From contig JAGQSC010000050.1 in assembly GCA_020439745.1 (NCBI GenBank), positions 186,001 to 250,000 on the forward strand: a stretch of DNA of 64,000 bases. The letters run 5' to 3'. The position numbers were made by a program, and so were the translations under genes. Source of the DNA: Acidobacteriota bacterium (GTDB lineage: Bacteria; Acidobacteriota; Holophagae; Acanthopleuribacterales; Acanthopleuribacteraceae). Below the pieces are notes generated by a model. That model was not told where the DNA came from. It ran no database searches and was given only the letters and a program-made list of their open reading frames with translations. Shown piece after piece: positions 35,284 through 61,100 of the stretch (positions are counted from its first letter, which is position 1; every line of letters starts with the position of its first letter).

Positions 35284-36255
35284 ATGATTCATCCCTTCCC
35301 TGACCGTTCAGCAATGGCTTCGCGCGCCCTGGGCCGATTTGGCACAGCAGGTTCTGGACCCACAATCATTACAGTCGGCGGCATGCATGGAAACGAACCG
35401 GCTGGCGTCATTGCGATTAGGTCTGTGCTTCACTATCTAGCCCAGAACCAACCGGAGTTTCGCGGCCAGATCTTCGGCTTGACAGGTAATATGAAGGCGC
35501 TCAAAGCTGGCAGTCGTTTTCTCAGCCACGACCTGAATCGCATTTGGACATCGCCAGATGAGTTGCCCTCTGATTGCAGGGATCTGGGCGAAGAACGCGA
35601 AGAACTTGAAGGTCTTCATCAAGAAATAACCGCCATTCTCAATGAGGTGCGCGGTCCCGTGATTTTGCTCGACCTGCACACAACCTCTGCCGAGGGGAGT
35701 CCATTCATGATGGTGGACGACTCGCAAAACATTGATGAATACAAAAATTATTTTCCAATACCCATCATCACCGGGCTCATAGATCGGCTTCGAGGCACAC
35801 TGGTACATTTCATGGTACACCACGGTCATCGGGCAGTCGTGTTTGAAGGCGGTCAACACGAGAAGATCTCGACGCTGGAGAATATGATTGGCGCCATCTG
35901 GATCCTACTGGTCAAACTAGGTTGTATCCCGGCACATCTCGTTCCCGAATTCGACTATTTCAAGCAGCGTCTCACGGCAGACGCTCTGGGACTACCCGAA
36001 ATACTTGACGTTTTTTACCGTCATCCCGTCCAAGCCGATGATCAGTTCGAAATGGAACCAGGTTATTTCAATTTCGACTTCGTGCGCATGGGTGAAATAC
36101 TCGGACATGACAAACATGGTCTTATTCGCGCGCCACAAGATGCCCGCATACTGATGCCGCTCTACCAGGGTCAAGGTAATGACGGTTTCTTTCTCGGAAC
36201 GGAAATGACACTCAGCGACTGGGCCATTGCTGAAACCGATCTCGCAAACGCCTGA
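35284..36255 (+). CDS. Succinylglutamate desuccinylase/aspartoacylase family protein
   Basis: 323 residues. It is a zinc carboxypeptidase-fold amidohydrolase of the AstE/AspA family. The zinc motif HxxE sits in GGMHGNEPAG (first His and Glu), the third ligand and substrate residues in DLHTTSAEG, and FEGGQH lies further on. Substrate is probably an N-acylated amino acid. No arginine-catabolism genes are adjacent. ATG is preceded by GGATGGAAG. It ends exactly where lapB ends on the other strand (abutting). Confidence 0.85.
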   Translation: MIHPFPDRSAMASRALGRFGTAGSGPTIITVGGMHGNEPAGVIAIRSVLHYLAQNQPEFRGQIFGLTGNMKALKAGSRFLSHDLNRIWTSPDELPSDCRDLGEEREELEGLHQEITAILNEVRGPVILLDLHTTSAEGSPFMMVDDSQNIDEYKNYFPIPIITGLIDRLRGTLVHFMVHHGHRAVVFEGGQHEKISTLENMIGAIWILLVKLGCIPAHLVPEFDYFKQRLTADALGLPEILDVFYRHPVQADDQFEMEPGYFNFDFVRMGEILGHDKHGLIRAPQDARILMPLYQGQGNDGFFLGTEMTLSDWAIAETDLANA

Positions 36256-37389
36256 CTAGATACGTTTTTCCACCAATGTCTTCAGTCTTCGGCACGAGGG
36301 GCATCGCCACAGTAGCTCATCGGAATGATAGTCGCAAACACTGCAGTGGTATGGCCTTCCGAAACTCATCTTCTCACGAACCTCAGCCATATATTTTTTC
36401 AACGACTCAGCGGCGTCGGGAGATCGTCTGATCAGGCGCCAATAGCTTTGGTGAACCACTAACACTCTCGGGGCCCGAGAAAGGCAATCGTCGAGCCATT
36501 TTTGCGCCAAATCGAACTGCCCCACCGACATCGCCACTTCCGCGCAAACTCTCTCGCTGCGCCAGTCATCGGGATCGCTTTGTAGATCCAATTGCATCTG
36601 CTCCAGAAACCATTCAGCTCGGCCCAATTGAACGGCCACGCGCCCTCGTTCATCCACCCACTGCCACAACTGATCACGAAACACCGATTTGTGTTTGTCC
36701 AAATACTTCAGCGCCTTTTCAGGTTTTTCAGTGAGTCGGAAGAAGCTGGAAATGCCCAAATGCGCAGGTACGTTGTTAGGGTCATACTTCAATGCCTGCT
36801 CAAAGTATTCCTTTGCACCGGCGAGCTGATCATCTCGCAGGGCCAGCTCCGCGGCATGTACATACACCCACGCTATTTGGTCCCTGGTATCTCCATTGGA
36901 AGCTTTGGCATAGGCCTTGAGGTACTGTGCTGCATCATCCCAGCGATGTAGTTTGGTATACACATCCACACACTTATGGCAAATCCATTCATCCACAACT
37001 ACGGCTTTACGCGTGTGCTCCATGGCGTGAACGGCTCGCTCCAATAAACCCGATGCCAAGAAATCTGCTGCCAGTTCAGCATATAGATAGGCCTGCACGA
37101 CTGGGTCAAGTCCCTGACGGGTAAGCAAGCTCTCGTGCAACCTGATGGCCGTTTTCAAATCGCCGCGCTTACGCAACACGATGCCTAAAGCCAAACCGAT
37201 CCCCACATCGTGATCCGAGCGGTTGTAAAGCTCGCGCAAATCACCAATGGCCTCCTCTCCTTCCAACAGCTTGTGAAAGGTTTGTGCCAGCTTGATTTCA
37301 CGTGGTGCTCGATGGAGATTGCGACGGCTGAGCCAAAACCAAGATCCTCCAACAATCGCAATGGCTGCCGCTATGAGGCCATAGATCAT
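36256..37389 (-). CDS. lapB: Lipopolysaccharide assembly protein B (LapB/YciM)
   Basis: 377 residues. N-terminal membrane helix (about 3-19), about nine TPRs (35-330), and a C-terminal rubredoxin-like zinc ribbon (YHCSVCDYHSDELLWRCPSC), exactly the LapB plan (E. coli 389). In Enterobacteria LapB recruits LpxC to FtsH for degradation and coordinates LPS assembly. It is third in the kdsC-lapA-lapB run; its ATG overlaps the lapA stop by 4 bases. All four Cys ligands are present. Confidence 0.93.
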   Translation of the reverse strand: MIYGLIAAAIAIVGGSWFWLSRRNLHRAPREIKLAQTFHKLLEGEEAIGDLRELYNRSDHDVGIGLALGIVLRKRGDLKTAIRLHESLLTRQGLDPVVQAYLYAELAADFLASGLLERAVHAMEHTRKAVVVDEWICHKCVDVYTKLHRWDDAAQYLKAYAKASNGDTRDQIAWVYVHAAELALRDDQLAGAKEYFEQALKYDPNNVPAHLGISSFFRLTEKPEKALKYLDKHKSVFRDQLWQWVDERGRVAVQLGRAEWFLEQMQLDLQSDPDDWRSERVCAEVAMSVGQFDLAQKWLDDCLSRAPRVLVVHQSYWRLIRRSPDAAESLKKYMAEVREKMSFGRPYHCSVCDYHSDELLWRCPSCRRLKTLVEKRI

Positions 37390-37694
37390 GACGCGGGTTC
37401 ACCAGAGGTCAAACGCCTCAGTTCCTTCACTTCCCGCTCCAACTCAGCCAACCGAACCGCGCTTTTCTTGTTGATCTGCACCAAACGGGCACGATCCAAC
37501 AAAGCCACCAAAATCACGGCGGCAGCTCCGTAGGCCATGAACAAGAACATGACCACACCCAATGCGACGTCATCAAGACGCACCCAAGGCAGAAGAAGTT
37601 GAACATCTACTCGTTGGCCAATGGCAGAGATCGCACTCACCAAGACGCTGCCCAAAAACAATACTAAGACAATGATATTCAACCATTTACGCAT
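37386..37694 (-). CDS. lapA: LapA-domain membrane protein
   Basis: 102 residues from ATG 37694 with GAGG upstream; an eight-codon-longer form starting at TTG is possible. Two membrane helices lie at about 5-25 and 43-65, followed by a coiled-coil tail with AELEREVKELRRL. It matches LapA (YciS, DUF1049), the small partner encoded next to lapB. Its start overlaps the kdsC end by 8 bases, and its stop overlaps lapB by 4 bases. Confidence 0.85.
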   Translation of the reverse strand: MRKWLNIIVLVLFLGSVLVSAISAIGQRVDVQLLLPWVRLDDVALGVVMFLFMAYGAAAVILVALLDRARLVQINKKSAVRLAELEREVKELRRLTSGEPAS

Positions 37695-38229
37695 GCTTAA
37701 CCTCAAAGTGCTCCACAACTTTGGACCAAAGACCCTGTTGGCTCAAGATGTGCCCCAATACCCAACGCAGCACACCATAACCGCCCGCAACAGGTACTAC
37801 CACATCCGCTATTTCCCGTATTTCTATGGCCGCGTCCACCGGGCAGAATGAGCATCCGCAAAGGGTCATGGGGGCCATGTCTGGTAGGTCATCCCCCACA
37901 TACGCCACTTGACTTGCCTCTAGTGAAAGCTCATCGAGTATTTCTCTAAAGGCAGATTGCTTATCGAGACGGCCATTCTTGAGCACGTGGATCCCCAACT
38001 CGCTCGCTCTCTTGGCCACCGCCTGCGACGCCCTACCCGTAAGAATGGCCACCGGGAAACCCAGTTCTGATGCCGCCTTGATCGCAAGCCCGTCCTTAAT
38101 TGAAAAGAACTTGCCTTCAGCACCATCCATGACTAATACACGGCCATCAGTCATCACACCATCGACGTCCGTGATGACCGCTCGAATTTGGCGAAAATCA
38201 GGTAGCTGCATCGCATTCCCCCCTGGCAT
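37687..38229 (-). CDS. kdsC: 3-deoxy-D-manno-octulosonate 8-phosphate phosphatase KdsC
   Basis: 180 residues from ATG 38229 (AGGAG five bases upstream); another ATG at 38211 with GGGGGG upstream is nearly as good. HAD superfamily type C0: catalytic ITDVDGVMTDG near the N-terminus, TGRAS loop, conserved Lys in KNGRLDK, and GDDLPDM. It dephosphorylates Kdo-8-P in LPS core synthesis. It is the first gene of the lapA-lapB set. kdsA, kdsB and kdsD are not in the window. Confidence 0.93.
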   Translation of the reverse strand: MPGGNAMQLPDFRQIRAVITDVDGVMTDGRVLVMDGAEGKFFSIKDGLAIKAASELGFPVAILTGRASQAVAKRASELGIHVLKNGRLDKQSAFREILDELSLEASQVAYVGDDLPDMAPMTLCGCSFCPVDAAIEIREIADVVVPVAGGYGVLRWVLGHILSQQGLWSKVVEHFEVKHA

Positions 38230-38309
38230 AGTTGCTCCTATTCTGGAAGACAGCCAACTAATTGGCAAGCATGGTTGCAATTACGGCTACAATGGCGCGC
38301 GGAGACGAC

Positions 38310-40190
38310 GTGAAGAAGAACAAGCAAACAAATACCAAGCCACCGGAGCCGGTTTTTCCCAAAACTTTGTGGTTGGTCGTGGCACTTGCTGCATTGTTGA
38401 GAATTGGATATTGGCTAGAGATTCGGACGCAACCCGATTATGCAGCACCGTGGATTGATGCTGCCTACCACGATGTTTGGGCACGTCAGATCGCATTTGG
38501 CGAATTGGTCCTTCCAGAAGGTATCAATGATCCCCACATTGATCGTTATCCCTATTTCCGACCTCCAGGTTATCCCTTCTTCCTGGCTGCCATATACAAA
38601 GTCACTGGTGGTCACTATGATGCGCCCCGGATCGTTCAATTCTTGTTGGGATTGCTCAATATTTTCTTGGTTTTTATGCTGGTCCAACGGTTCGCCAACA
38701 GAAGGGCCGCTCTTTTCGCCGCTGCATGGTGTGGGCTGTACCCCATCAGCATCTATTTCGAAGGTGAGTTGTTGGCGGCGGCACCTCTCGCCACTGGGAT
38801 TCTCCTGGTCATCTGGGCACATGAGCAGATGCGCCAAAACTGGAATATTCGAATGGCCTGGCTTTCCGGTGTGGGACTGGGTCTGCTGTGTCTATTCCGC
38901 CCAAATTTTTTGCTTATGGTGCCGCCTCTCGCTTTATGGCTCGCCTGGAGCCATCGTCGAAATAGAACGCATCTCTGGTTGATGACACAGTGGGCGATTG
39001 GATTGTTTTTAGCCATCGTTCCTTGCACCTTGCGCAACCTCATCAAGACGGACGATCTGGTGTTGATCTCAAGCAATGGCGGGATCAATCTGTACATAGG
39101 CAATCATCATCAGGCAGACGGATTTTCGGCCACTATTCAAGACCTGGGTGCCATATCCGGACTGAATGGCTGGACGTCCTTTGATTTCCCCGCCCTGATG
39201 GATGGTGTCTCCAAGCGGCAAGGTCGGCCGATGAAAGCCTCTGAAGTTTCTCGCCACTTTTCAAGTTTGGCTTGGGATGAAATGACCCGTTATCCAGGTA
39301 TCACTTTGAAACGCTTCATCAAAAAGGCGCTGCATTTCTGGAACGCTAAGGAGATATCCAACAACAAGGAGGTAAGTGTTGCTGTTGACCAATCTTGGGC
39401 TCTGACTTGGTTGCCTGGATTTGGATTGCTGTTTGTATGTGCTGCACTCGGGTTTGCCGTTCTTCAAGAAAAACAGCGCGTGCTTCAAATCGTCTTATGG
39501 TTGGCCGTGAGCTTTGTTTCCTATCTGCCCTTTTTCGTAACCGGTCGCTTCCGCGCGCCCCTGCTACCCCTATTGGCAATGCTAGCTGGAATGGGCGTAG
39601 ATGCCGTTGTGGCGCGTCAACTTAAATGGAGGGCCGCGTTGGTTGGCGTTCTCGCTGCGATGGTGACCGTGACAACCGCGTTCCAATACTCACCGGACAC
39701 TGCGGTTTGGCACTACCATCAGGGTATTTCTCATGAAACTCAAGGCCGAGACGATTTGGCGCGTCAATCCTACCTAAAGGCACTGGATGCCAATCCGACG
39801 TTTGTCGATGCGGCCTTGAAGTTAGGCAATTTGGCTTATCGACTGGGAGACGAGGCACATGCCTATCAATATTGGAAACGGGCTGTGGACCATCGTCCCC
39901 AAGCCGAGTCACTCAACAATCTGGCTTGGCTCTTGGCAACCACTCACGATCAACAACGAAGGAATCCTAACCAAGCTATCGATTACGCGTCGCGCGCCGT
40001 GGCAATGACCGGCCGACAAGATAGTGGAAAACTAGACACCCTGGCAGAGGCCTACTTTTCCGCGGGACAACGAAACGAGGCAAAGGCGATTTGGCTTGAG
40101 GCCATTCGTTGCGCTGAAGGCAATGGGAATCAGGAAGAGGCGCATCATATGAAACGACGACTGGACGAACTGGGGCTGACGCCGCGCTAA
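38310..40190 (+). CDS. GT39/ArnT-like glycosyltransferase with C-terminal TPRs
   Basis: 626 residues from a GTG with GGAG five bases upstream; other in-frame starts (38262 TTG, 38271 and 38292 ATG) have poorer sites. It is a GT-C enzyme with about ten membrane helices. The first loop has a conserved acidic region (DAAYHDVWA) and FRPPGYPFF typical of the PMT/ArnT group, which use lipid-linked sugars. After the last helix at about residue 470, four TPR-like units (HYHQGISHETQG, AALKLGNLAYRLG, AIDYASRAVAM) form a soluble tail. The acceptor is unknown. It overlaps xer by 4 bases at the 3' end. Confidence 0.88.
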   Translation: MKKNKQTNTKPPEPVFPKTLWLVVALAALLRIGYWLEIRTQPDYAAPWIDAAYHDVWARQIAFGELVLPEGINDPHIDRYPYFRPPGYPFFLAAIYKVTGGHYDAPRIVQFLLGLLNIFLVFMLVQRFANRRAALFAAAWCGLYPISIYFEGELLAAAPLATGILLVIWAHEQMRQNWNIRMAWLSGVGLGLLCLFRPNFLLMVPPLALWLAWSHRRNRTHLWLMTQWAIGLFLAIVPCTLRNLIKTDDLVLISSNGGINLYIGNHHQADGFSATIQDLGAISGLNGWTSFDFPALMDGVSKRQGRPMKASEVSRHFSSLAWDEMTRYPGITLKRFIKKALHFWNAKEISNNKEVSVAVDQSWALTWLPGFGLLFVCAALGFAVLQEKQRVLQIVLWLAVSFVSYLPFFVTGRFRAPLLPLLAMLAGMGVDAVVARQLKWRAALVGVLAAMVTVTTAFQYSPDTAVWHYHQGISHETQGRDDLARQSYLKALDANPTFVDAALKLGNLAYRLGDEAHAYQYWKRAVDHRPQAESLNNLAWLLATTHDQQRRNPNQAIDYASRAVAMTGRQDSGKLDTLAEAYFSAGQRNEAKAIWLEAIRCAEGNGNQEEAHHMKRRLDELGLTPR

Positions 40191-41062
40191 GCCCGTGGAT
40201 GACTTTCATCATAGATCTTCATGAGGTAGTCCAAATTGAGGTGTGTGTATTTTTGGGTGGTCGAAAGTGAGGCATGCCCCAAAAGCTCCTGAATCGCCCT
40301 AATATCAGCACCTGACTCCAACAGATGCGTGGCGAAGGAATGCCTTAACGTATGAGGGCTAACGTGATAATCCAGCTCTAACTGTGCCAGAGCGGCCATT
40401 ACTTCACGCCGAATTCCACGCACACTCAATCTGCGTCCAAACTTGTTCAACCACAAAGCTTCAGTCTGGAGCTGTACTTGACGTTGCTTTTCCCTTCGGG
40501 CATCCAGATATCGACGCAAATGGGGTTCCGTAGCCTTGCCAATAGGCACCACGCGAACTTTCTTACCTTTGCCCATCACTCGAACCGTGAGATCCGACAG
40601 ATTCAGGTCCGAGACATCAAGTCCGGCGCTCTCAGAGATTCGGATACCGGTCGCATAGAACAGGCGTAGGATGGTGTGCCTGCGAATGTGAGCGAAATCA
40701 CCGTTTACCACTTCCTTCATCAACCCCATAACATCGTCAATTGTCATGAAACTGGGAAGCCGTTGTTCTGTACGCGGCGCTTCCAAATTCAAAGCGGGAT
40801 TACTCGGCATGAGGTCATGTTGTTTGAGATAACGAAAAAAAGAACGCAAACAGCTGATTCTTCGACTGAGGCTGGCTGCATTGAGATCACGACACTGCGT
40901 GAGGTAGGCATAGAGAACATCTTCAGTGACCACTTGGAGCGTGACATGCCGCGCCTCGAGCCAACTGTGAAAATGGCTCAGGTCATTGTGGTAAGCGCGC
41001 AACGTGTGAACAGAAAGACGCCTTTCCACACTCAGAACTTGCAAAAACTGCTCCATCCACAT
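40187..41062 (-). CDS. xerC: Tyrosine recombinase XerC/XerD
   Basis: 291 residues. N-terminal SAM-like domain (FLQVLSVERRLSVHTL), then the catalytic domain with Arg in ATGIRISE, HxxR in HTLRHSFATHLL, the second His in LGHASLSTTQKYTHL with the catalytic Tyr at its YTH. The C-terminus ends in HPRA as in E. coli XerC/XerD. It resolves chromosome dimers at dif. It seems a housekeeping Xer rather than a phage integrase, as no mobile genes or att repeats lie near. Choice of C over D is based on the C-terminal resemblance only. Confidence 0.9.
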   Translation of the reverse strand: MWMEQFLQVLSVERRLSVHTLRAYHNDLSHFHSWLEARHVTLQVVTEDVLYAYLTQCRDLNAASLSRRISCLRSFFRYLKQHDLMPSNPALNLEAPRTEQRLPSFMTIDDVMGLMKEVVNGDFAHIRRHTILRLFYATGIRISESAGLDVSDLNLSDLTVRVMGKGKKVRVVPIGKATEPHLRRYLDARREKQRQVQLQTEALWLNKFGRRLSVRGIRREVMAALAQLELDYHVSPHTLRHSFATHLLESGADIRAIQELLGHASLSTTQKYTHLNLDYLMKIYDESHPRA

Positions 41063-41163
41063 CACCAGAAACCAACCTGTCCGGAATAATCTCCCTTAGA
41101 ATCGTATTAACTAAGCATAGTCCTTGACTCTTCACAGAGCAAAACATCACGAAAGGAAATCTG

Positions 41164-42213
41164 ATGAGCTTGAACCGAATCATGATGATCTGCATTTTGG
41201 CCTGCGCCAGGATCCATGCCGAAACAGAATTGTTTTTCCCCTGGGTCACCAACAACAGCCAATTTGAAGGCCTGGTCATCGTCAATAACCTCAATGATCA
41301 GAGCGTGACCGTAACCATGACGGCTCGACGCGCCAACGGTGACAACGATACCGCGGTAAGAACCATTCCGGCATTCGAGCAATTGGTAGAGGGCACCGAC
41401 ACGCTATTCAATAGTCTGGGTTCTGGCCCTGGTTTTGCCATTCAATTGACCAGCTCAGCCGATCAATTGACCGCGGCATTTGTGATTCGGGGTACGTTTT
41501 CGGCATCTGGTTCATCGCCCGCCCAAGCCAATGTCGCCACTCGCTCTGAAGGTTCAAACATCCTCATGTTTAGTTATCTCCCTGTGCCGCCTGAAGGTGG
41601 GGACTCAGCTCCCGTTGTGTTGAACTTAGGTGGCGTCACAGCCGACGTAACCTTTCACGGTTACCAGAATGGTCAAAAAATCGGAACTTTTTCGATTTTG
41701 GTCGACCCGCTTCAGCCCTATGCCAATGTCACGTCAGCCATGTTTCCGGGCGTAAGTGGTGATGTCTACGTGGTAGCCGAAAGTGACTTTCCCATGTTGG
41801 GCATGGCGTTTATTTTTAATGCGGAAACCGAACCTTCCATGGCCAATGCGGTTCCATTTGGATTCGTGCCTGAACCTATGACAGCTGCAATGGTTTCGTT
41901 TTCCATGGACGTACAACCCATTTTCAGCGCCAGTTGCGCCTTGAGTAGCTGCCACTCCGGTAGCACACCGGAGGCCGGTTTGAATTTGAGCGCAAATTCG
42001 GCGTTTGGCGAAATCGTCAACGTGAAGTCTGCCCAATCACCCTTGGATCTGGTGGAACCCGGTCAGCCTGAGAACAGCTATCTTTACTTGAAAATTGACG
42101 ACAATCCCACCAACAACAGTCAATCGCGTATGCCGCGAAATCGACCACCTCTGGACGATAGCCAGATTGCCATCATCGAAGCATGGATTCGCGAGGGGGC
42201 GATGAACAATTAA
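41164..42213 (+). CDS. Secreted protein with C-terminal C-X4-C-H module
   Basis: 349 residues. The signal peptide is about 1-18. Mature N-terminal part, about 20-235: beta-rich, opens with LFFPWVTNNSQFEGLVIVNN, which looks like an immunoglobulin-type fold. C-terminal part, about 240-349: CALSSCHSGS, then LNLSANSAF, VEPGQPENSYLYLKI, MPRNRPPLDDSQIAIIEAW. This layout is seen in the heme-like PSCyt1/cytochrome-type modules of secreted proteins, but the Cys spacing is C-X4-C-H, not the normal C-X2-C-H. GAAAGGAAA precedes ATG. A strong hairpin follows the stop (42223-42247). Confidence 0.75.
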   Translation: MSLNRIMMICILACARIHAETELFFPWVTNNSQFEGLVIVNNLNDQSVTVTMTARRANGDNDTAVRTIPAFEQLVEGTDTLFNSLGSGPGFAIQLTSSADQLTAAFVIRGTFSASGSSPAQANVATRSEGSNILMFSYLPVPPEGGDSAPVVLNLGGVTADVTFHGYQNGQKIGTFSILVDPLQPYANVTSAMFPGVSGDVYVVAESDFPMLGMAFIFNAETEPSMANAVPFGFVPEPMTAAMVSFSMDVQPIFSASCALSSCHSGSTPEAGLNLSANSAFGEIVNVKSAQSPLDLVEPGQPENSYLYLKIDDNPTNNSQSRMPRNRPPLDDSQIAIIEAWIREGAMNN

Positions 42214-42222
42214 CTGGGTTGA

Positions 42223-42247
42223 GGCCGGTGGGCCATACCCACCGGCC
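42223..42247. terminator. Hairpin between convergent genes
   Basis: Perfect 10-bp stem (42223-42232 with 42238-42247) and a 5-nt loop, CCATA. There is no U-tract after it on either strand, so it may be a bidirectional structural terminator. The loop resembles that of the hairpin at 51107-51130. Confidence 0.55.
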
Positions 42248-42358
42248 AGGGACGCCACAGGACGAGGAGGTTGCTCGTGGTGTCAATCCGACAGAACGCG
42301 GCGGTTCCAGCTCTCGTGTTTCGTACAGGCCAAACGACCGAAATTGCTGGAGTCACGT

Positions 42359-44464
42359 CTAACGAGCCCCCAACATGGCCCTTAACGCGGCTATTTCAGC
42401 TTTCAATGCCGTTATTTCGGCGTCCTGTTCCTGAACTGCTTTCACCAGTGGAACCACAAACTCGGCATATCTCAGGCCGTAGGGCGTGGAAGCGTTGGTG
42501 GGTGTATCAACCCCACTGAATTCATAGCTGAGCGTTTTTGCGGCGGCTTCAACTTCTTGTGCTATGAAGCCCGTGTGGCGTACATGATCATTCTCAACGG
42601 TTTTGATTGGAGCGCGTTTTCCGGCAAGAAACTGGTGCGTGGCAGCACGATCCAAATGATAGGTCACAGGTCGCAGGGCGCGGATGAAATCCATGCCAGG
42701 GACATCTTCTTTGACATCGGTTTTGAATCGTCCGTCCGAGAAAGCAGTCCAAGCCACCTGCCCACCAATGCTGTTGACGCCACTGTCGCCCAGCCGCACC
42801 TGATTGCTGGCCGTCACCGTGGCGACATCGCCAATGGCGACTGAATTGGAGTAGCTACCATCCATGACATCAGCACCGCGACCAATGATGGTGTTGTAGG
42901 ATCCCGAAGTCACTGCATCGCCTGCCCGAAACCCAAGGGCCGTATTATTGCTTGCTTGATTGTTCAGCAGCGCTTCAAATCCCATCGCAGTGTTGTTGAT
43001 TTGTGTTGTGATCGATTTCAGGGAACTGGCACCGATCGCAGTATTTCCAGCACCGCCAGTCAAGTTCAACATCGCTTCGGCGCCGACCGCTGTTGTGTCA
43101 TCTGCAGAGGAATTGAATGCGGCCTTGTAGCCAACCGCAGTGGCGCGGGAACCGGTATTATTGTAAAGCGCATCATCCCCAACACCCGTGTTGTATGAAC
43201 CGATTTGATTGGTGAATAACGAAGATGTCCCAAACGCCGCATTCGAAACGCCCGACGTATTGTTCTGCATGGATGAACGTCCCACCGCACAATTGCTGCT
43301 CGCAGTGTTCTTACTCAAGGCATAACGCCCCACGGCCGTATTGCTTGAGCCGGTAAGGTTGAAATCCATGGCACCGGCGCCCACTGCTGTATTGTCGGTT
43401 CCCGTCGTATTACTTAACAAAGCGAACACGCCAACTGCAGTATTGTTGTCGGCTGTGTTGTCTGAAAGTGCCGACTTTCCAACGGCCGTGTTGTAGTTAC
43501 CGGTCGATCCATCACGCAGCGCTGACCATCCCACCGCGGTGTTATCAAAGCCGGTGGCATTGTCTCGCAATGAATGGGTACCCACCGCTGTGTTCGAATT
43601 GCCCGCAGTGCGATATAACATACTTGAAGAACCCACAGACACATTCTCGGTACCCGTCGCATTTGAGCCCAATGCCGAGGTTCCGACTGCTGTATTTTTG
43701 TCTGCGGTATTGTTGACAAGCGCGCCTTGGCCGATGGCCGTATTCATGCTTCCTCCTGACCCGAAGCCCATAGCTCCCCAACCAAGAGCCGTATTTTGCT
43801 GGCCGCTTGTATTGCTCATTAGTGCCTCGTAACCCAGAGCCGTATTGAAGTTGGCACCATCGTCCATGGCACCCGCACTCACTCCGACAAAGGTGGAACT
43901 GACACCGCTTACGGTGTTTAGGCGACCACCGACCCAATCACCGGAACTGTTGACGACGGTTCCCACACCCGAAATCGAGTAACTCGTCCCAGTCACATCA
44001 AGCGTGGACAGGTTGCCCACCAAAAAATGAGCTACCTGCGCCAGATACGATGCATCCACGCCAACCATACGGGCACTCAGCTTTGAGGTGAGTTCCGAGA
44101 TATCAGGACCCAGCCGAATTCCGTCTCGACGAGGAAACACTTCCAGCGGTCCCCACTCGCTGCCATCTGTGCCCCAGCCCGCGACCCACACAGAGCTGCG
44201 TCGTGTCACATCGTCGGGCAATGGCATGCCTGAAGCACCTAATACCAAAACCGACTTGTCTTGTATCCACCACAATTTCTCGCCAGGTTCGGAGAAAATA
44301 GGCTCACCACCCGGATAAGGCAGATAAGCTATTTCAAACCAGACATCTTCGCCGGGGAAACCGTTGGGATCGACGTCAAGAACCATTACCTGCGGACCGG
44401 TGGCCTGCAGCGCGTTGTATTCACTTGGCTCGTTGAGCCAGCACATCATAGCCATCAGGAACAT
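42359..44464 (-). CDS. Secreted repeat protein with C-terminal peptidase S74 domain
   Basis: 701 residues from ATG 44464, with GGAGG five bases upstream. A short hydrophobic start (about 1-13) is followed by a nonrepetitive region (about 14-190), then about 18 head-type repeats of around 23 residues with NTAVG and the pattern ALxxNTTG (about 190-560), and the C-terminal S74 chaperone, with the SDGRFK Ser-Lys motif and TGFIAQEVEA. In phage tail fibres and MyRF the S74 domain trimerises the chain and then cuts itself off. No phage genes surround it. Repeat polymorphism is visible at the protein level only. Probably a surface-exposed trimeric fibre. Confidence 0.9.
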   Translation of the reverse strand: MFLMAMMCWLNEPSEYNALQATGPQVMVLDVDPNGFPGEDVWFEIAYLPYPGGEPIFSEPGEKLWWIQDKSVLVLGASGMPLPDDVTRRSSVWVAGWGTDGSEWGPLEVFPRRDGIRLGPDISELTSKLSARMVGVDASYLAQVAHFLVGNLSTLDVTGTSYSISGVGTVVNSSGDWVGGRLNTVSGVSSTFVGVSAGAMDDGANFNTALGYEALMSNTSGQQNTALGWGAMGFGSGGSMNTAIGQGALVNNTADKNTAVGTSALGSNATGTENVSVGSSSMLYRTAGNSNTAVGTHSLRDNATGFDNTAVGWSALRDGSTGNYNTAVGKSALSDNTADNNTAVGVFALLSNTTGTDNTAVGAGAMDFNLTGSSNTAVGRYALSKNTASSNCAVGRSSMQNNTSGVSNAAFGTSSLFTNQIGSYNTGVGDDALYNNTGSRATAVGYKAAFNSSADDTTAVGAEAMLNLTGGAGNTAIGASSLKSITTQINNTAMGFEALLNNQASNNTALGFRAGDAVTSGSYNTIIGRGADVMDGSYSNSVAIGDVATVTASNQVRLGDSGVNSIGGQVAWTAFSDGRFKTDVKEDVPGMDFIRALRPVTYHLDRAATHQFLAGKRAPIKTVENDHVRHTGFIAQEVEAAAKTLSYEFSGVDTPTNASTPYGLRYAEFVVPLVKAVQEQDAEITALKAEIAALRAMLGAR

Positions 44465-44568
44465 AGCAACCTCCAAAGTTCCAAGCTATGAAGAGACGCG
44501 ATATTCAACGCGTTCAGGGGACATCTAAATGCAAAAGAGTGATTCAGTCTGCCAATGACGAAGTCGGA

Positions 44569-44919
44569 TTAGGACGCCTGCAGAGAACGCTGTATTTTTT
44601 TGGAGAGCTTCTGCACGACTAACGCGTAAGATGCGTGTGCCAATTCTTGAATTTGGGAATCAGAAAAGCCGCATGTTCCCAATTGAATCTGGACCCAATG
44701 AGCACGAGCCAAGTAAGGGGCGGGAATCACGCCTGGTACTTGGGTAAGATCATGGAAGAGCACCGGATCCACCTTAATCGAGACGTTGCCTGCCGCTGCA
44801 TCTCCCATCACGGCGAACATCTTGCCACCCACCTTGAAAACCAAATGGTCCTCCCACAGGATTTCCTCTGTGTGACCTTTCAATTGGCGGCAATGATGGG
44901 CAAATTCGTCAAACGTCAC
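44569..44919 (-). CDS. MmcQ/YjbR family protein
   Basis: 116 residues, typical length. Family features: EILWEDHLVFKVGGKMFAV, SIKVDP and the C-terminal helix SYALVVQKLSKK. It has a cysteine-free DNA-binding-like alpha/beta fold related to the CyaY surface; the role is unknown. Its start overlaps the thioesterase stop by 4 bases (ATGA). It follows FecR-lipoprotein and thioesterase genes in one operon. Confidence 0.85.
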   Translation of the reverse strand: MTFDEFAHHCRQLKGHTEEILWEDHLVFKVGGKMFAVMGDAAAGNVSIKVDPVLFHDLTQVPGVIPAPYLARAHWVQIQLGTCGFSDSQIQELAHASYALVVQKLSKKIQRSLQAS

Positions 44920-45383
44920 GGTGCTGAGTCGGCAACCAAATCGGGATGAAATGCGGGAGGGTCAGCCTCGAAGGGTCTTTTCAATATGGGCTCTGCTTCG
45001 CGGTTCTTGTCCACGGCTACATAGGTCACCACCGCGTCAGTGACCTGCATCCGCGACTTATGAAAGTCCTCGCGCGTGGCGACAACTTTTACTTCGACCG
45101 TGATGGAAGTACGGCCCACGCGGACAATGCGCGTATAGAAGCTGATCAAATCGCCGACGTACACAGGTTCTACGAACACCACTTCTTTCATCGCAACGGT
45201 CACGACCATCTGGAGACAGTAACGTTTCGCCTCAATGGCGCCCGCAACGTCGATATAGGAAAGAATCACACCACCGAATATGGTCCCGTGATGATTGGTT
45301 TCCTTAGGAAGCAGCGTGGTGCGAATGGAAAGGTTCCAAGACTGCAGTTCAGACTCGTTGACGACCGTTTCAGCCTTAGCCAT
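44916..45383 (-). CDS. Acyl-CoA thioesterase, hotdog fold (YciA-like)
   Basis: 155 residues from ATG 45383, with GGAG upstream; the ATG shares the A of the previous TGA (TGATG). Family marker: NHHGTIFGGVILSYIDVAGAI with the catalytic Asp, then VGDLISFYTRI and VVATREDFHKS. It hydrolyses acyl-CoA to free acid and CoA. It forms an operon with the FecR lipoprotein upstream and the YjbR gene downstream. The C-terminal extension (30 residues) is of low complexity. Confidence 0.9.
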   Translation of the reverse strand: MAKAETVVNESELQSWNLSIRTTLLPKETNHHGTIFGGVILSYIDVAGAIEAKRYCLQMVVTVAMKEVVFVEPVYVGDLISFYTRIVRVGRTSITVEVKVVATREDFHKSRMQVTDAVVTYVAVDKNREAEPILKRPFEADPPAFHPDLVADSAP

Positions 45384-46711
45384 CAATACTCCACTTCAAC
45401 TTTATGGCGCGAAATGGTTTCGCGACCCCGACTGTCTCGGGCAATAATCTCCACCCACTGGGTACCGGCGCGCTTGAAATTCACAATCACGCTGAAGGTG
45501 CCATCCATATTCATGACAGCCTTGACACCGTTCACACTTATAACGGCATCTTTCACGGAACGGCCTTTGACAATAGCTGTGTCCGCGATGATCTCAATTT
45601 GCGTATCGTAAATCTTGGGGCCGTCCGAAGTTGATGTAGTTCCCGACTGAGCGACCTCGACACGAACTTGAGAAATCGGTGAAAACGTGCCTGGAATTCC
45701 CGAGTCCGATATGGCGCGTACACGCCAGAAATAGACACCAGCAGTTAATTCCACTTGCAACGAATTATCTGGCAAAACCGTGTCCTTGATAATTTCCTCA
45801 AATCGGTTGGTGTTAGCTACTTGTATTTGGTACGAGGGAACGGGTTGTCGAATATGCCAATCGAACTTCACGTTCACGGGACTCTCAACACTGGTTGCTG
45901 GAAACGATTGGTTCCCAACCGGTGCATCCAAAATGGGCGCCGACGGCAAGTCAACCAGAACGCGGCCATCGCCGTCCCAAGTTAGAGATTGGTTGGATGA
46001 AAGTGTCCCGGTGATGCCACCGCCCACCCATTCTGCTCGACCAGACTGAATTGAGACGTAATCGCCGTGACTGCTGTCGCTTGAGGCAATCTCCATAGTT
46101 GCCGGAGGATCTAGTTTGAATTTGTGGTCACGAAATGCGACTTCGGTTGATCCTCCACGATGATTGACCACGACGAGACCTTCATCCACCGAAAGGTTCA
46201 AGTGCTCTCCCTGAACGCGATCAATGTGAACTCGAGAACTCGAACCGATCATCATGCGAGACCCTGCCGCCAGGTTCAGGTGAATGCTCGAGCGCACGCC
46301 GGTCTCTATGGTCATACCAGGCTCGGGTTTAATTTCCGGAGTCCACTGCTCCATCCCTAGACCACGGTCTACACGGACCAGCCCGGAAGATGCGCCAAAT
46401 CCGATTTTCCCCTTGATGCGTACATCCTCACCACGGCGTAGCCGCTCCAGATCCTTCAACACATGGTCCACCAATTCGCGGGCGCCTGACGTGTCATCTT
46501 CGATCAATTTAAGATCCGCTTCGCTCAACTTGTGTCTTGATTCGTCAATAAAGGCACGGACATCCGGATTACCGTCCTTGTTGCTTTCCAAGAGTTCCAA
46601 TTGTTCGCGTGCATTCATGAGTTGTTCGCGTACCTTGTTGGCTTCGTTATTGCCACCGCACGCAAAAAGCAGCACCAATAACACAGCTGAGGTCGCATAC
46701 TTCAGGTTCAT
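45383..46711 (-). CDS. FecR-domain lipoprotein
   Basis: 442 residues from ATG 46711. Signal peptide with the lipobox LLFAC (Cys about 18). Coiled-coil region, about 25-90; FecR-like domain, about 95-230 (ETGVRSSIHLNLAAGSRMMIG and VDEGLVVVNHRGG); then fibronectin-type III and Ig-like beta domains (about 260-442). FecR domains in signalling couple to ECF sigma factors, but in lipoproteins they are structural. No sigma or TonB gene is beside it. It overlaps the thioesterase by one base. Probable envelope function. Confidence 0.8.
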   Translation of the reverse strand: MNLKYATSAVLLVLLFACGGNNEANKVREQLMNAREQLELLESNKDGNPDVRAFIDESRHKLSEADLKLIEDDTSGARELVDHVLKDLERLRRGEDVRIKGKIGFGASSGLVRVDRGLGMEQWTPEIKPEPGMTIETGVRSSIHLNLAAGSRMMIGSSSRVHIDRVQGEHLNLSVDEGLVVVNHRGGSTEVAFRDHKFKLDPPATMEIASSDSSHGDYVSIQSGRAEWVGGGITGTLSSNQSLTWDGDGRVLVDLPSAPILDAPVGNQSFPATSVESPVNVKFDWHIRQPVPSYQIQVANTNRFEEIIKDTVLPDNSLQVELTAGVYFWRVRAISDSGIPGTFSPISQVRVEVAQSGTTSTSDGPKIYDTQIEIIADTAIVKGRSVKDAVISVNGVKAVMNMDGTFSVIVNFKRAGTQWVEIIARDSRGRETISRHKVEVEY

Positions 46712-46759
46712 TTCCCACCACATGGCTAAAATCGCAACTATCTTAACTCAAACTGCGGT

Positions 46760-48472
46760 TCAGAGTTTACCTGAAGCCTTTAATTGCTTATGTTTCTCTT
46801 CATTTTCGACCCACGGTTTACGTTCGAAATAGGATTTGGTTAATTTGGCAACCGTGCCTGAGAGCAGAACTAATGCCACCAAGTTGGGTATGGTCACGAG
46901 ACTCAGGGCAACGTCACCAAAATTCCAGATCACATTGAGCGACAGGATGGCACCCAGGAAGTGGAATCCGATATATACCACTTTGAAAGGGATGATCGCC
47001 TTTGTACCCATGAGGTAGTTGGCGCAGCGATCACCATAGTAACTCCACGAAATTGCGGTGGAGACGGCAAACAAAGCAACACACAGAACCACAATCATGG
47101 CGCCCCACCGACCCAAATGTCGTTGGAAGGCGATGGTCGTCAAGGGTGCTGAATTCTCGACCGCATTGCCATATAGAACAGGGTACTCTTTTCCATTTCC
47201 ATCCACTGCCATGGACTTTTCGGGCATGATCGAGCCCGTAAATGGCGCTTGATGTTCGGGATCGGTGAAGAATTCAGTTACGGGTACTTCATGCCACGAA
47301 AATTGGGCCACACCTTCAGCGTACTGGGGTTCACCTGCAATCACCGCAATGGCCGCGGGCGCTGTGCCATCTTGATAGAAGCCTTCCGCATCCACCATGC
47401 GATAGGTGATGTCGCCGGAAGACAACACCAAGTCGGTTGGATGCGTCTCTTTCCAAACCCCCGACGTGAGCAACACAAGTCCTGTCATGGTGCAGATGAC
47501 GAGTGTATCGATAAACGGCTCCAGCAACGCGACCACTCCCTCAGATACCGGTTCATCGGTTTGAGCCGCGGAGTGCGCAATGGGCGCAGAACCCTGGCCA
47601 GCTTCATTGGAGAAGAGCCCTCGTTTGACACCCCAAAGAGCCGTCATAGCAAATGCACCAGCTCCCACGCCAGCCACACCGCCTTTAGGATTAAACGCTT
47701 CTGAAAAAATTGATCCAATGGCCGGCAGAACATGCTCGAAATTCATGACGATGATCATTAGGGCGCCACCCACATAAAGAATGGCCATCAACGGCGCAAG
47801 CACCGAAGTTACTTTCCCGATCCGCCGAATGCCACCGAAAATGATGGCTGCCACAAAAGCGGACGTCAGCAGTCCCGTCACGGCTTTGGGCGCTGAGAAC
47901 TCACTGTGCAACAGGTCACTGACCGTATTGGCTTGAATGGCATTACCCGTCAGAAACGACGTGAGCATGAGTCCACACGCAAAGAAGATAGCCAATGGCT
48001 TCCAGTTCTTGCCAAGCCCTTTCTCGATGTAATACATCGGGCCACCAGATACTGAACCCTGCCATGCTTTTCCAGAACTATCCTCTATCTGGCGATAATT
48101 CAAAGCCAGTGTAACTTCAGAATACTTGACCGCCATGCCAAGGAACGCGGTCATCCACATCCAGAACAAGGCGCCTGGTCCACCCCAGTGGATGGCAATC
48201 GCCACACCTGCAATGTTACCCACACCCACGGTTGCCGAAAGGGCCGTCGTTAGCGCCTGGAAATGTGACACATCGCCGGGCTCGTCGGGGTCGTCGTACT
48301 TGCCTGTGGTCACGGCCACGCCATGGGCAAAACAACGTATCTGGACGAACAGGAGGCGTAGTGTCAAATACAGTCCTGTGCTCAAGAGCGCCACAATCAG
48401 CCACTGCGGCCGAACGACATAGGTTTCAATAAACGTCGTCAGAGCCTGAATAATATTGCTAATAGCATCCAT
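46760..48472 (-). CDS. Alanine/glycine:cation symporter (AgcS/AlsT family)
   Basis: 570 residues from ATG 48472 (AGAGG upstream). A sodium-coupled amino-acid transporter with about 11 membrane helices. Family motifs: TALSATVGVGNIAGVAIA, GGPGALFWMW, and GLFSNEAGQGSAPIAH. A roughly 95-residue hydrophilic insert sits between two helices (about 330-430), as in some Bacteroidetes homologues. Monocistronic; substrate probably alanine or glycine. The long GTG-started form is less likely. Confidence 0.93.
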   Translation of the reverse strand: MDAISNIIQALTTFIETYVVRPQWLIVALLSTGLYLTLRLLFVQIRCFAHGVAVTTGKYDDPDEPGDVSHFQALTTALSATVGVGNIAGVAIAIHWGGPGALFWMWMTAFLGMAVKYSEVTLALNYRQIEDSSGKAWQGSVSGGPMYYIEKGLGKNWKPLAIFFACGLMLTSFLTGNAIQANTVSDLLHSEFSAPKAVTGLLTSAFVAAIIFGGIRRIGKVTSVLAPLMAILYVGGALMIIVMNFEHVLPAIGSIFSEAFNPKGGVAGVGAGAFAMTALWGVKRGLFSNEAGQGSAPIAHSAAQTDEPVSEGVVALLEPFIDTLVICTMTGLVLLTSGVWKETHPTDLVLSSGDITYRMVDAEGFYQDGTAPAAIAVIAGEPQYAEGVAQFSWHEVPVTEFFTDPEHQAPFTGSIMPEKSMAVDGNGKEYPVLYGNAVENSAPLTTIAFQRHLGRWGAMIVVLCVALFAVSTAISWSYYGDRCANYLMGTKAIIPFKVVYIGFHFLGAILSLNVIWNFGDVALSLVTIPNLVALVLLSGTVAKLTKSYFERKPWVENEEKHKQLKASGKL

Positions 48473-48634
48473 GTACGAGATCCTCTCCAGGGCCCAGTAA
48501 ATACCGAGCGTTCCGATAGGCACACCGAACTTTCAACGCATGAAACAGTCAAGTGGGCGGCTCTTAAAGATGCCAAATCTTACGGAAGCGCCGTGTCAGT
48601 GTCAAGTTGAAGGCGGCAAGCCAAGCACGGTTGA

Positions 48635-55130: not shown

Positions 55131-58100
55131 TCAGAACGTGCGGCCGTAGCGCAAATGCCAGTCTTTCGTGGCCCGAAACTCGATATCCTGGGGCAAGGTT
55201 TCCTCGACCCGATACGCCCAATCCACATGCAGGTGCCCCACAGGACTATCCCAACCGATCCCAAGGCCTGTTGTCACCGTTAAGTCATCAAGACTCAGAT
55301 CATTTGAATTTGCCCATACCCGGCCTGCGTCCACGAAACCCGACAAACTGATCCCTTGCCATCCGGTATAGTAGGTCAACTCATGGCTTCCAAAGACCAT
55401 CGCTTCGCCGCCTGCGACCGACGTTCCCGAAGGGTTTAATGGCCCCAGCGCATCCTGATGATAACCACGAACAGTCGTGGCCCCTCCAAGCGTGAATAAC
55501 AAAGGGTCCCGCTCGTCGCTGAAGGAATCAGGAATCAGGTTCTTAGGCTGATACAAGCCAAATTTGTACCGTTGCTGCCACATCCACGGACCACGGCTAA
55601 GGAACGACGTAAAAGCAGCGTTGTAACGGGTTCCATTCACCGCGATTTCACTGCCAAATGCCTGGAAGTAGTGTTCTACTCCGACCCTCATCAGGGTACC
55701 CGTACGCGGATTAGAGTTGTGATCCAAGTTTCGATAAAGCCATGAAAGATTGAGGGGCGTCAAGGAGATGGTCGATTTGGATTCGACAATTTCGGTAATG
55801 GTCTCAGGATCAATGGGGTCATTGGGATCGGATTCAAAATCGGGAATATAGAAGATCACTTCCTCATGCTGAATCACACGGCGATAGGCAGTTCCCAACG
55901 TCACTTGACTGCGTTTGGAAATGGGGTACCTGATTTCACCGGTTAGTTTGTAATTCTCGGGAAACACAAATCGCCGTTGGGATTCGATCTGAAGTGGTGG
56001 TGTGAAGTCGTCAGGATGATCGTCGCGTGTGGATTTCAACCAATCTGCCGATACATAAAAATTGAAAGGCGTTTTAAAAATTCGCCGAAACAGTGTGTCC
56101 GCATGGACACTGCGTTCGTTGGGTCCACGCTCACTGCGAAACGAAAAAGTGTTCACGCCAGACCCGAACAAGTTGTCGCGAAACTGAGCCACAATGGTAG
56201 GTTCTTCATATTCGTTTATGGCCACACCATATTCAAAATCCCACCGATTTCGTTCGTTCAAGATGATCCGAGCTCTGTGTTCATCACCTAACACACGTAC
56301 GGCATCATAGGACCCCGTTCGAATGAGCTCCTCTTGAGATTGGATGAGCGAACTTTGAGTGTAGGCTTCATGCTTAGTTTTGAAGAACCGCTGCACTTTT
56401 TCAGGGCGCACACGGTTGGTGCCTTCCAATACGATTTCTTGATAAATCGGTTCGGCGGATGTGTAGAGACCCAGGCTCACTTCCACCTCACCGTCTACCA
56501 AGTTGGGTGTCACCGACACCCGCTGGTCACGGCGACGAACCGTTTCAAGTTCATGAGTCATCGTCTTTAGTAGGGCGTAATTAAAAGGTGCCCCGACCCA
56601 TTTTGTCATCAGTTCGGCGGGTAACGGATCCGAATGGGGTTCCGGGACAATACGGGCTACTTCGGCTTTTCGACCCAGTCGAATTGGAACGACAAACATG
56701 CGCGGGTTAACAAAGGAACCTCTATCAATAGAGGGACTTACATATCCCTGGGCTGCCAACCTTGCCCGCAATACCGCTTCAGAATGGTGGGGCGCAACCA
56801 GGTATTCCGACAAAAACGTGCGTGCCTTTTCTTTCTTGGCAACGAGGGAATGCAGCTGTTGATCCGCATCGCCAAAATGTATCTCCACATCACTAACCAG
56901 CGGGCCCTTGTCGACGAGGATGGTCCACTGATGATCGTTTTGACGGACATGTGGCTGGATCTCAAGGTAGCCTTGACGTAAACCCACCTGTTTGATCCAG
57001 GTGTTGAGGCGAATCTCAGCAGCATCACCACTCTGTTTGATCAACCGCAACGCTTCAAGATGTTGTCGTTCCGTCAGTTCGAAACCCTGAATTTCGAAAC
57101 TTGTTTGCTTGCCGGTGTCTACATCGATAGACAGCTGTCCATTTTCAAAAGCTATTTGCAGAGACGGTGTCAAGTAACCTTCACGCATCAAAGCCTGTTC
57201 AATCTTGAGTCGCGACCTCCTGACCGTCGATGAAGAGAACAGTTGACCAGCCTTAATCGCGGCCCACTTTTTGATCCTCTTGGACTCGTATCCAGTGATC
57301 ACGATTTTCTTGATACGCACGGGCTCAACATCTGAAGCCCCAAATCGCTGTCGCCGCCTGAAATCAAACGTGGCTTCGTTATTTTCATAAACTGCCGATA
57401 CGTAACTGTCCCAATAAGGGCCAATCCCCAATTCCACCCGTTGTTCAGAGGGACGGTCGATGGGCACCGCAATACGACTGATAAGTTTGTCTCGAATCGG
57501 CTGGGTAAACACCACTGAGAACGAGCGATCAAACAGCTGTTCACTTTGTTCACTTTCCAGGCTAACCGCGGACGACACTTTGCCGAGCACGTAACTTGCC
57601 AATAACGTAGCTAATCCATCCGTAGAGCCGCTATCTTCCAAGTCACTGATGTAACCCACGATCTGAATGGGCTGGCGCTCACTAAAATCGTCTCCGTATT
57701 CCAAAAAGACCTGCAAGTAGGGCTCTCCGGGCCGATTGGCATGAAACTGGACTTGGCTCTCTTTGAAGACATAAGTTTCGCGCCCGATGCGTATTTCACT
57801 GCCTTCGTTGATGTAGAGCGTTCCAGAGGCTAAATAGGGTTGCGCGAGGTTGCCCATGACTAGAATGTCCGGACTCTCCAAAGTCACAAAGCCGAGTTCG
57901 TGTTCAATCAGAAGCGGGGTGGGCGTTTGCGTCACTAATTGAACATCTACTTGCGAAAGGAGCGGGTCGGGAAACGCAATGGATTCGGTTTCCGTAAGCA
58001 TGGCGTTGACAAAGGTCTTTAGTGTATCCGAGGGCGTATAGTATCCATCGGTAATTTTCACCTCGCCACGGAGTACGGGCGTTGAGCCAGTGTGATGCTG

Positions 58101-61100
58101 CAAGCTAATCGCCAAATCTGTTTGACCCAGAAAATCGCCGTAAGTTAGGGGTACAGCTTCACCAAAAGCACTAATTTGCCAATCATCCAATGTACCCACA
58201 CCCGCAATGCCCACCAAACTACCATTCACTTCAACCTTGGAATCAGTGAGTCTAAAGTTGTCCCGTCGATGCTCTAGAGTGATCAGAGCATTCTTAATCT
58301 CCATCCAGGGTTCCGGGTGGTAAACAGTTCCAGCCAGTTGTCTGAATTCTGCCGACAGGGTGTCAAATTCCGATAACTTGGGCACGGCTGCGTCGATCCA
58401 AAACAACGCATCACCCAATAGGTCAGGGACAAAGGCTTTAAGCTGATCGACACCCAACACAGATCGAATATGCAAGCGTCCTTCCTGGGTTGCGAAACTG
58501 ATGGGCAGATCGTCGTACATTAGTAGATTGTCATTGGTGTACCATCCATTGTCGTAGGCCAAACCAAGCGTCCGAGTACTGACCCTTGATTGATCGTAGG
58601 TCGCTTCCAGTTGATCGACCCAAAGTGTTGCCTTTGGAGTTTCAAACGAAAAATCACTCTCAAGATCGAATTCGCTGAGCAAAACAGACATAGCCAGAGG
58701 AAGCTGATTCTCGATCAAACGGTCGTTGAGTGCCGTTGCATCCACCAACGTCAACCGACAATGGCAACTGATGTCTGACCCGGCACTGAGCGTGGGTAAA
58801 TCGGCAATGGGCCTAAGCCCCACGTTGCCATCACACTCCAGGTCCATACCAGCAATACGCCCTTCCACTCGATCAATGATCAAGCCATCGGCCCAAGAAA
58901 ATTCCAATGTCCGAAAAGCAGCATCCCAGCCGTCCCATTGACCATCCAGCTGTGTCAAAGCCACACAGATCTTAGGTGACACATCGGGGTCCCAAATCAA
59001 TGAAACGGTCCCACTTGCTGTGGTAAGGTCAACCGCCTCAGGCACTTGATTCCCAAGAGCCTTTCGCAGTCGGTACCAGTCCTGAACGGCAAACTCCAAT
59101 TGCCCCACGCCAGATTCGGCGTCGCCCGTCCATTCAGAGCTAAACACAGTAAGTCCGGCAATCTCGAAAGGTACATCCGTGACAACACCCCACCATCGGT
59201 CCTTGGTTATTTTCAGGGGGAGATCGAGTTTGGAGGGTATGACGATTTCTCGATCACCTACGGCCATTCGTTGAGGTGGCGCCAGAATACGCAGGTCGAG
59301 TTGTTTGGGGTTGGCATTGAAATCGAACCGGGCTAGGGGTAATCGCACCAATTGGTCACTGACCACCACATCTTGGTGACGACTGATCAAGGTACCTGTT
59401 GCTTGCCACTGATCGAAATCTACAAATCTACAGCGAAGATTGACGTCAATACCGTTCCAGGCAGCACTGAGCCAATCGGCATCCAATTCGCTGTCTGCAA
59501 ATGTGAATCCTGTATGAAGATCCACGCCGCTACCCAAGAGTTCCGTGGATACACCAAACGTTCCTCCGACGACCAGATTGTCCAAGGCACCCAAGGCGCG
59601 TACCGAACCCGAAACCAGAAACGGCTGTTGTTCGTAGACCAAGCTGAAGTCAGTCAACTCAAAACAGCTTTCTCTCAGCGTTTGCGTTTGACCATCCAGT
59701 AAAACCGTTCCTTCAATGCCGCGGTCGCTGTGGGTTCTAATATCCAGCGCGGTTAAGGGACCGTGCGCGGAAAGGTCTATGTTTCCCAATAGCTGGTCAA
59801 CCACCGACAAGCCATCAACCTGTCCTCGCACTTCATCCAAATTCCATTGTGTCCCTACAAGACTGATTGCACCCATGGCGGTTGCCTTTTCGAATGCGAT
59901 CTTGTGATCCGCAAGGGCCAGCCACGGTTCGTCATCTCGGGCTTCCACGTAGAACACGGCTTGCCCATGTTGATCCGCCCATGCCGTCACTGCGAGGTCA
60001 CGCATGGACCATGTCAGGTTGCCATCGACCCCCGCCTCCGGGGACCAATGACCATTTGCCTCGAAATCAGCCGCGCCAGTTCCCCAGGCGGACCAAAGAA
60101 CGTCAATACCTTCACCAATCATCAACCCACCATGAAGATTGAGGTCATCGAAGCCCACGGGGAATTGTCCGAGTAGCGCAGTCTTCGCTTGCCCACTAAA
60201 CGACCCCGACCATTCATCGCCGTCCGCGCCAAACACCCCAACCAAGCGCACATCTTCACCGAATGCCAATGCGAAGTCGGTATGCCATCGCCACATGCGC
60301 AAATCACCTCGAGCATTCACGTCCCAACGCTGGTCCTGTACCATAGCGACAGTCTGGGCAGTCCAGTGCGCCGTGTCATTTTCAATCACGGCATTGCACG
60401 TCACAGGTTCATCGTAACCTGACAGGTCAGACCCGATTTGGGATGACACCTGTAACGTCGCGATTGACTGACGCAGATCCATGGATCCTGCAACTTCAAT
60501 ATGAGACGAATCTGTGGAGACCGTCGCCTCCAGGTTATCGAATCTGATGAAGTCTTGTGTGTCAGCGACCACGTGAAGCACAGCAGATCGCACAATTTGA
60601 TCGCCCGCCCGTAATTGCTCGGTTGTCAGATCCAAGGAAATACGACGATCAAGACGCTGTATTCGCACGTCCCCTGCGTCAAAGTCAGCTTGAAGGACCT
60701 GACCCCGGGCACTTAAAGCCAGGTCTTCGACCACAAACCGGTCCAGTCGAATGTGGGGCCATGAGGGTGTACTGGTTTCCGACCCGTCGCCCTCAAAAAG
60801 GGCGTCGTCCAGTTCAATCAGACCAGAACGCAACACGACCTCATCCAAATCAATCGCGCCGCGTAGCATGCCGTTTCCTGCATTGACGCTGACGAAATCG
60901 GCCTCTACTGACCATCCATTTCCGCTTACGTGTAACCCTTGAATCCTAACTTGTAGCCGAAACAGATTGAGGTCAAGACGGTCGGCATCAAATTTGATGC
61001 CCCATCGCTGCAGGCGACTCTTGAGTTGCCCCAATAACGGGCGCTCGACGACCTGTGTCTGAGGTAGCAGAACGAACAGCAACAAGAGCAGCGCGGTGAG

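Follow-up and report, generated by a model that had tools for sequence, protein, structure and literature searches.

A chromosomal Peptidase_S74 protein of Acanthopleuribacteraceae, probably a surface fibre, with a family-specific N-terminal domain

On the chromosome of an Acidobacteriota bacterium of the Acanthopleuribacteraceae, a gene for a 701-residue protein looks like a phage tail fibre at its C-terminal end, raising the question of whether it is a relic of a phage or a fibre of the bacterium's own. Most discussion of Peptidase_S74 chaperones concerns phages and MYRF, and Bdellovibrio is where their role in bacteria has been elucidated. We analysed the gene within a stretch of 64,000 nucleotides (the window; contig JAGQSC010000050.1, positions 186,001 to 250,000) and consider it, with a probability of roughly 70%, to encode a chromosomal, probably surface-displayed homotrimeric adhesive fibre that would mature itself through its S74 domain and belong to a mosaic repertoire of such proteins. 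The gene and its parts are located in the window as follows.

42359..44464 (-): fibre gene, 701 aa, from the open reading frame and its translation; start ATG at 44464
44470..44474 (-): GGAGG resembling a ribosome-binding site, read directly, five bases 5' of the ATG of the fibre gene
44402..44464 (-): residues 1-21, a short hydrophobic N-terminus, possible but atypical as a signal peptide
43925..44401 (-): residues 22-180, family-specific N-terminal domain, perhaps for display, from its profile distribution and without Pfam, NCBIfam or phage match
42794..43897 (-): residues 190-557, 22 NTAVG-type tandem units, a predicted beta-solenoid-like shaft, from register and AlphaFold2
42539..42739 (-): residues 576-642, Peptidase_S74 domain, PF13884
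42737..42739 (-): codon of Ser576, the presumed nucleophile at which the chain would be cut, from the motif SDGRFK and, for the cut, after the example of Bd3182 (PMC10769870)
42722..42724 (-): codon of Lys581, its partner in the dyad, from the motif SDGRFK
42365..42469 (-): residues 666-700, C-terminal helix, probably a coiled coil, from DSSP of the AlphaFold2 model (pLDDT 34-72)

The hallmark of the protein is its Peptidase_S74 domain near the C-terminus, where PF13884 matches residues 576 to 642 of 701 (E 4.4e-10, 40.1 bits against a cut-off of 22). An SDGRFK motif of the SDxxxK type stands intact at the start of the domain, confirming the Ser-Lys dyad (Ser576 and Lys581) that had been read there in the initial annotation. 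The C-terminal fragment of 115 residues proposed in the same place needs correction, as a cut after Ser576 would release residues 577-701, a piece of 125 residues with a computed mass of 13.8 kDa. According to the available part of the study on Bdellovibrio, three chains fold with the help of the C-terminal S74 domain, which then cuts itself, and Bd3182 is cleaved at S782 while an S782A variant stays uncut (PMC10769870). A self-matured trimeric fibre is also what we would best infer from the S74 family for the protein studied here, and export, trimer formation, cleavage, surface attachment and adhesion would all follow this model. Its N-terminal domain (residues 22-180) would keep the fibre on the cell surface or close to it, the 22 NTAVG units would form a long beta-solenoid-like shaft, and the S74 domain would fold three chains together before cutting itself off after Ser576. 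The expected products are a fibre in which each chain has 576 residues and a released chaperone of 125; the fibre would be a trimeric rod, attached through its N-terminal domain and exposing its free end for binding. A point against the model is that the short hydrophobic N-terminus has neither Lys nor Arg among its first 22 residues and would, lacking these usual basic residues, be an atypical signal peptide; the N-termini of several relatives look, by eye, like classical signal sequences.

Among solved structures of the S74 type, the S74 part of the protein aligns to the distal subunit of a phage long tail fibre (6f45, E 5e-5) and to MYRF (7dc3, E 0.047, non-significant by itself), proteins whose N-terminal parts and functions differ from those seen here. 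Within the bacterial family, the Ser and the Lys at +5 are kept in 15 of 16 S74 matches and both are lost in one, L062. This protein (1243-3075, -) and L063 (808-2427, +), relatives encoded by the two g2 genomes (g2 being a genus of the family), carry ADARLQ and ADRRLL in place of the dyad. L062 scores 24.8 bits for S74 in one scan and 20.3 in another, and its close relative L063, which resembles it by eye, has no S74 match. The two might possibly present a natural uncut S74 chaperone as their tip.

Between the N-terminal domain and the S74 domain, tandem repeats are indeed present as first described, though not with the period of about 23 residues given for them. Autocorrelation is 0.29 at a lag of 17 residues and 0.10 at lag 23, the highest value among 500 shuffles being 0.17; the repeat period is 16 to 17 residues, and one of 23 is ruled out. 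We count 22 units in register with starts spanning residues 190 to 541, 13 of them with NTA[VILM]G and seven with exact NTAVG. The repeat motif pattern, which was fitted after inspection of the sequence, places one match (262) out of register and misses the unit at 524, finds 22 matches in the fibre protein compared to at most seven in 500 shuffles, and the longest evenly spaced chain of units is likewise 22 compared to at most five in 300 shuffles. For the NTAVG proteins of the family, the longest in-register chains are 22, 12, 16, 24, 9 and 7 units, values that are lower bounds; since they range from 7 to 24 units, the length of the repeat stretch seems to differ among paralogues.

Predicted structures are most informative for this shaft. 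The AlphaFold2 model of the full-length monomer is poor overall (mean pLDDT 60.4, pTM 0.45), with repeat blocks at a pLDDT of about 65-88 over most of their region and low confidence in the N-terminal and S74 parts; it supports a repetitive beta fold in which each unit would form one coil, and is of use, if anywhere, in the repeat region. The N-terminal part modelled alone from its single sequence reached a pLDDT of 39.7. Foldseek with the low-confidence AlphaFold2 model found no PDB match at E 0.001 or better, and a single-sequence search of the PDB found none. Among predicted viral proteins, Foldseek gave 14 matches at E 0.001 or better, the first to an FhaB-like protein of Bodo saltans virus and one to a Tupanvirus S74 protein. 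VIA-align matches were middling and are not relied on here, including for the repeats the HMW1 secretion domain (Z 13.6, 3.3 A over 221), CbpF (Z 11.5, 7.7 A over 180) and P22 tailspike (Z 10.3, 3.6 A over 232), and for the N-terminal part the C-terminal domain of TcpF (Z 7.3, 3.0 A over 93).

The NTAVG units recall the head repeats of YadA, and the relative L062 has a YadA_head match (E 1.6e-7), which together could suggest a trimeric autotransporter (type Vc) adhesin. In the protein itself, however, Pfam at E up to 1 recognises S74 alone, with neither YadA_head (PF05658) nor a YadA anchor, and the chain ends in S74 plus a helix; the label "head-type" given to the repeats earlier does not apply in the sense of this Pfam family, and we give the autotransporter hardly any credence.

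What the repeats and the S74 domain do resemble is phage tail fibres. By tblastn, 113 phage records match the fibre protein, the best of them a putative tail fibre of a Pelagibacter phage with 37% over residues 209-688, and PHROGs places it in the tail spike family phrog_4636 (E 1.4e-83, best stretch 454-696). Five plasmid records match as well; four rows are named tail fiber domain-containing protein, and three plasmid matches of that name come from Hymenobacter or Bacillus. By these matches the half of the protein that holds the repeats and the S74 domain is of the phage tail-fibre kind, and because both phage and plasmid records match it, this half would seem to travel between phages and bacteria. 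Like the S74 fibres or spikes of SPO1-like Bacillus phages and Pelagibacter phage HTVC112P (phrog_4636), the protein aligns from about residue 200 to 695, but unlike them it has neither a phage N-terminus nor phage neighbours, its N-terminal domain being bacterial and family-specific.

The obvious alternative, a tail-fibre gene fragment or domesticated prophage remnant that lost its phage, draws on exactly these matches, but it accounts for only part of the protein. None of the 25 phage records listed among the 113 aligns before residue 197, their matches running to about residue 553-700, no phage record matched residues 21-179 at E up to 1, and scans of viral contigs confirmed no relative of the N-terminal domain. 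The surroundings likewise speak against a remnant. PHROGs was run on ten open reading frames located at 35284-48523, and NCBIfam on nine of these and a more distant DnaJ gene. The PHROG scan found no phage structural, packaging or lysis family among the ten, in line with the initial annotation, which had seen no phage genes nearby, and four of them have PHROG matches to a KdsC-like phosphatase, a TPR protein, a XerC/XerD-type recombinase and a YciA-like thioesterase. NCBIfam names, where given, are those of bacterial proteins (LapB-like, KdsC-like, XerC/XerD-type recombinase, YjbR-like, YciA-like thioesterase and amino-acid carrier, some of them below the cut-off, with two of the ten unmatched), and the neighbourhood is housekeeping-like. 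A prophage location in related genomes, raised earlier as a point to check, was looked for beside three relatives in the sister genome OFTM365. By Pfam, the ten open reading frames there hold no phage structural family and include a TonB-type receptor, a sulfatase, a PPIase, a propeptide/PKD protein and metabolic enzymes, with one of the ten unmatched. The presence of two copies in the bacterium's own genome and of more in its sister genome, on different contigs, also argues against a stray remnant, which we consider quite improbable; the C-terminal half might nevertheless have come from a phage long ago.

The N-terminal domain is what sets the protein apart. It matches nothing in Pfam at E up to 1 and nothing in NCBIfam, and together with the phage searches this bears out the early remark that the region fits none of the passenger or baseplate families known. 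Profile searching located the domain in 22 proteins from six of the seven genomes of Acanthopleuribacteraceae, with four copies in the genome of the window, 12 in another genome of the same genus, three, one, one and one in the others and none in G005; one of these copies is truncated by the start of its contig and another contains an in-frame TAA. A broader profile run over the class recovered the same six of 93 genomes, i.e., none of the 86 outside the family. Scanning genome contigs with strict patterns returned only the sister MAG Holophagae bacterium OFTM365, with three loci, a result that says little about wider spread because these patterns also missed other family genomes holding the domain. 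A search over the phylum likewise found it only in the bacterium's own genome among 297 drawn, the other domain-bearing genomes of the family evidently lying outside the draw. On the strength of these searches, the domain is the new part of the protein, specific to the family within the class and with no phage counterpart found. The copy with the in-frame TAA is L067 (G004:C18, about 736-3390), a gene with N-terminal domain and S74 that is split by this codon, possibly as a pseudogene, by recoding or through an assembly error.

Rather than standing alone, the fibre protein shares its N-terminal domain with all other members of this group of 22, which carry it on several different shafts. Pfam was run on some of the 22 and the other shaft labels come from motif counts and reading, with Pfam confirming LVIVD in L023 and L066, YadA_head in L062 and LbR_Ice_bind plus UspA1_rep in L069. 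NTAVG units with S74 are found in six of the 22 (from reading of their frames), LVIVD repeats in four without S74 and in two with it, YadA-head-type repeats in three (two of them with S74 at cut-off) and "AGG" repeats in two, one with S74; two further proteins have another C-terminus in common, judged by eye, and the remaining three have C-termini of other kinds. S74 reaches the cut-off in 11 of the 22, the window protein included, and both kinds of C-terminus are present among the four domain proteins of its own genome (two with S74, two without). The LVIVD protein of this genome is named choice-of-anchor B family protein by NCBIfam. In the sister genome, the locus L066 carries two adjacent genes for LVIVD plus S74 fibres, 1310-5077 (-) and 4969-8730 (-), which overlap as stop-to-stop frames.

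A tree of the 22 N-terminal domains, in which shaft labels were set by hand and 10 of 19 inner branches are weak, groups the proteins by shaft: seven changes, the minimum for eight labels, are needed, compared to 14.7 in shuffles. The NTAVG group has a support of 84/92, and the LVIVD protein L061 lies apart from the other three LVIVD proteins without S74. Since the tree needs only this minimum, combinations of domain and shaft look old and stable rather than often swapped. Frequent recent swapping of tips, a scenario we had considered, is argued against by the same count.

Such a mosaic repertoire, in which the same N-terminal domain would carry different shafts and tips across the family, invites comparison with the mosaic adhesive trimers (MATs) of Bdellovibrio. 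As far as the available part of PMC10769870 describes them, a common N-terminal domain some 130 aa long is present in 21 MATs, 13 of which end in S74 with SDxxxK, and the fibres sit on the cell surface. Our protein matches the S74 group of MATs (e.g., Bd3182) in having an N-terminal domain that recurs among its own relatives, a long repetitive shaft and an SDxxxK motif, and the family also resembles them in combining S74 and other C-termini with one N-terminal domain inside a single genome (available part of PMC10769870). The likeness is one of layout and not necessarily of homology between the N-terminal domains, and the family differs in belonging to the Acidobacteriota and in the use of LVIVD propeller-type repeats for some shafts of its putative fibres, which the available part of PMC10769870 does not mention for MATs.

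The MAT comparison also bears on a second alternative, a fibre that is secreted and shed, e.g., as a matrix or biofilm component, with an N-terminal domain that serves something other than attachment. Neither a lipobox nor a barrel domain nor a transmembrane segment past the short N-terminal stretch was recognised by sequence reading and Pfam, which would suit shedding, and our analysis found no receptor, ligand or surface anchor for the protein. That 22 proteins combine one common N-terminal domain with differing C-termini, however, fits a shared anchor, and MATs of the same layout are found on the surface of Bdellovibrio, as the available part of PMC10769870 reports. We regard the shed fibre as unlikely and favour the surface-displayed one. 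Somewhat short of even odds, in our view, is the further-reaching idea that this lineage has, in the N-terminal domain, a surface-display module of its own that is unrelated to that of MATs, and that a MAT-like repertoire was built independently in this family, including S74 fibres with LVIVD beta-propellers and at least one dyad-less S74 domain as a permanent tip. If the protein is the bacterial fibre that we propose, bacteria other than Bdellovibrio would also have taken up the phage-type way of building fibres. A single display domain serving many shafts would give a concrete starting point for finding its partner on the cell surface, and LVIVD propellers and other shafts would widen the range of things that such fibres present. 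We found no account of these fibre proteins in Acanthopleuribacteraceae in the literature; the supplementary tables of PMC10769870 list other bacteria and might include the family, and the available part of PMC8841776 contains none of the terms S74, adhesin, tail fibre or LVIVD.

Closer to home, the sister family f2 (Holophagaceae-type, a name that is inferred) has S74 in 21 of its 77 genomes, and the "YQGRL" S74 proteins of this family (L077-L079 and L081) resemble the fibre protein in being secreted-looking and in combining NTAVG-type repeats with S74. They differ in their N-terminal domain, which occurs in 44 of the 77 f2 genomes and in none of the seven genomes of the fibre protein's own family (f1); nine genomes of family f3 have neither S74 nor the YQGRL domain. 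Comparing the two N-terminal domains by hhalign gave low probabilities (24% with four sequences, 18.5% and 26.9% with 22, each over 32 columns), and global alignments of the two found nothing. Seven of the 30 S74 domains of f2 were read (L077, L078, L079, L080, L081, L049 and L054), and all keep the Ser and the Lys with Asp changed to Ser, in the motifs SSRRYK, SSRRFK, SSIRFK and SSRRTK.

Two other genes of the window merit mention. The convergent neighbour of the fibre gene (41164-42213, +) encodes what looks like a secreted protein, weakly matching planctomycete cytochrome C (PSCyt1) with 21.5 bits against a cut-off of 22. Farther away, a gene at 55131-61124 (-) encodes a protein of 1997 residues, of which about 1260 at the N-terminus have no Pfam match at E 1e-5, followed, in its C-terminal part, by a POTRA match with its best stretch at 1269-1336 and an Omp85 barrel at 1651-1978.
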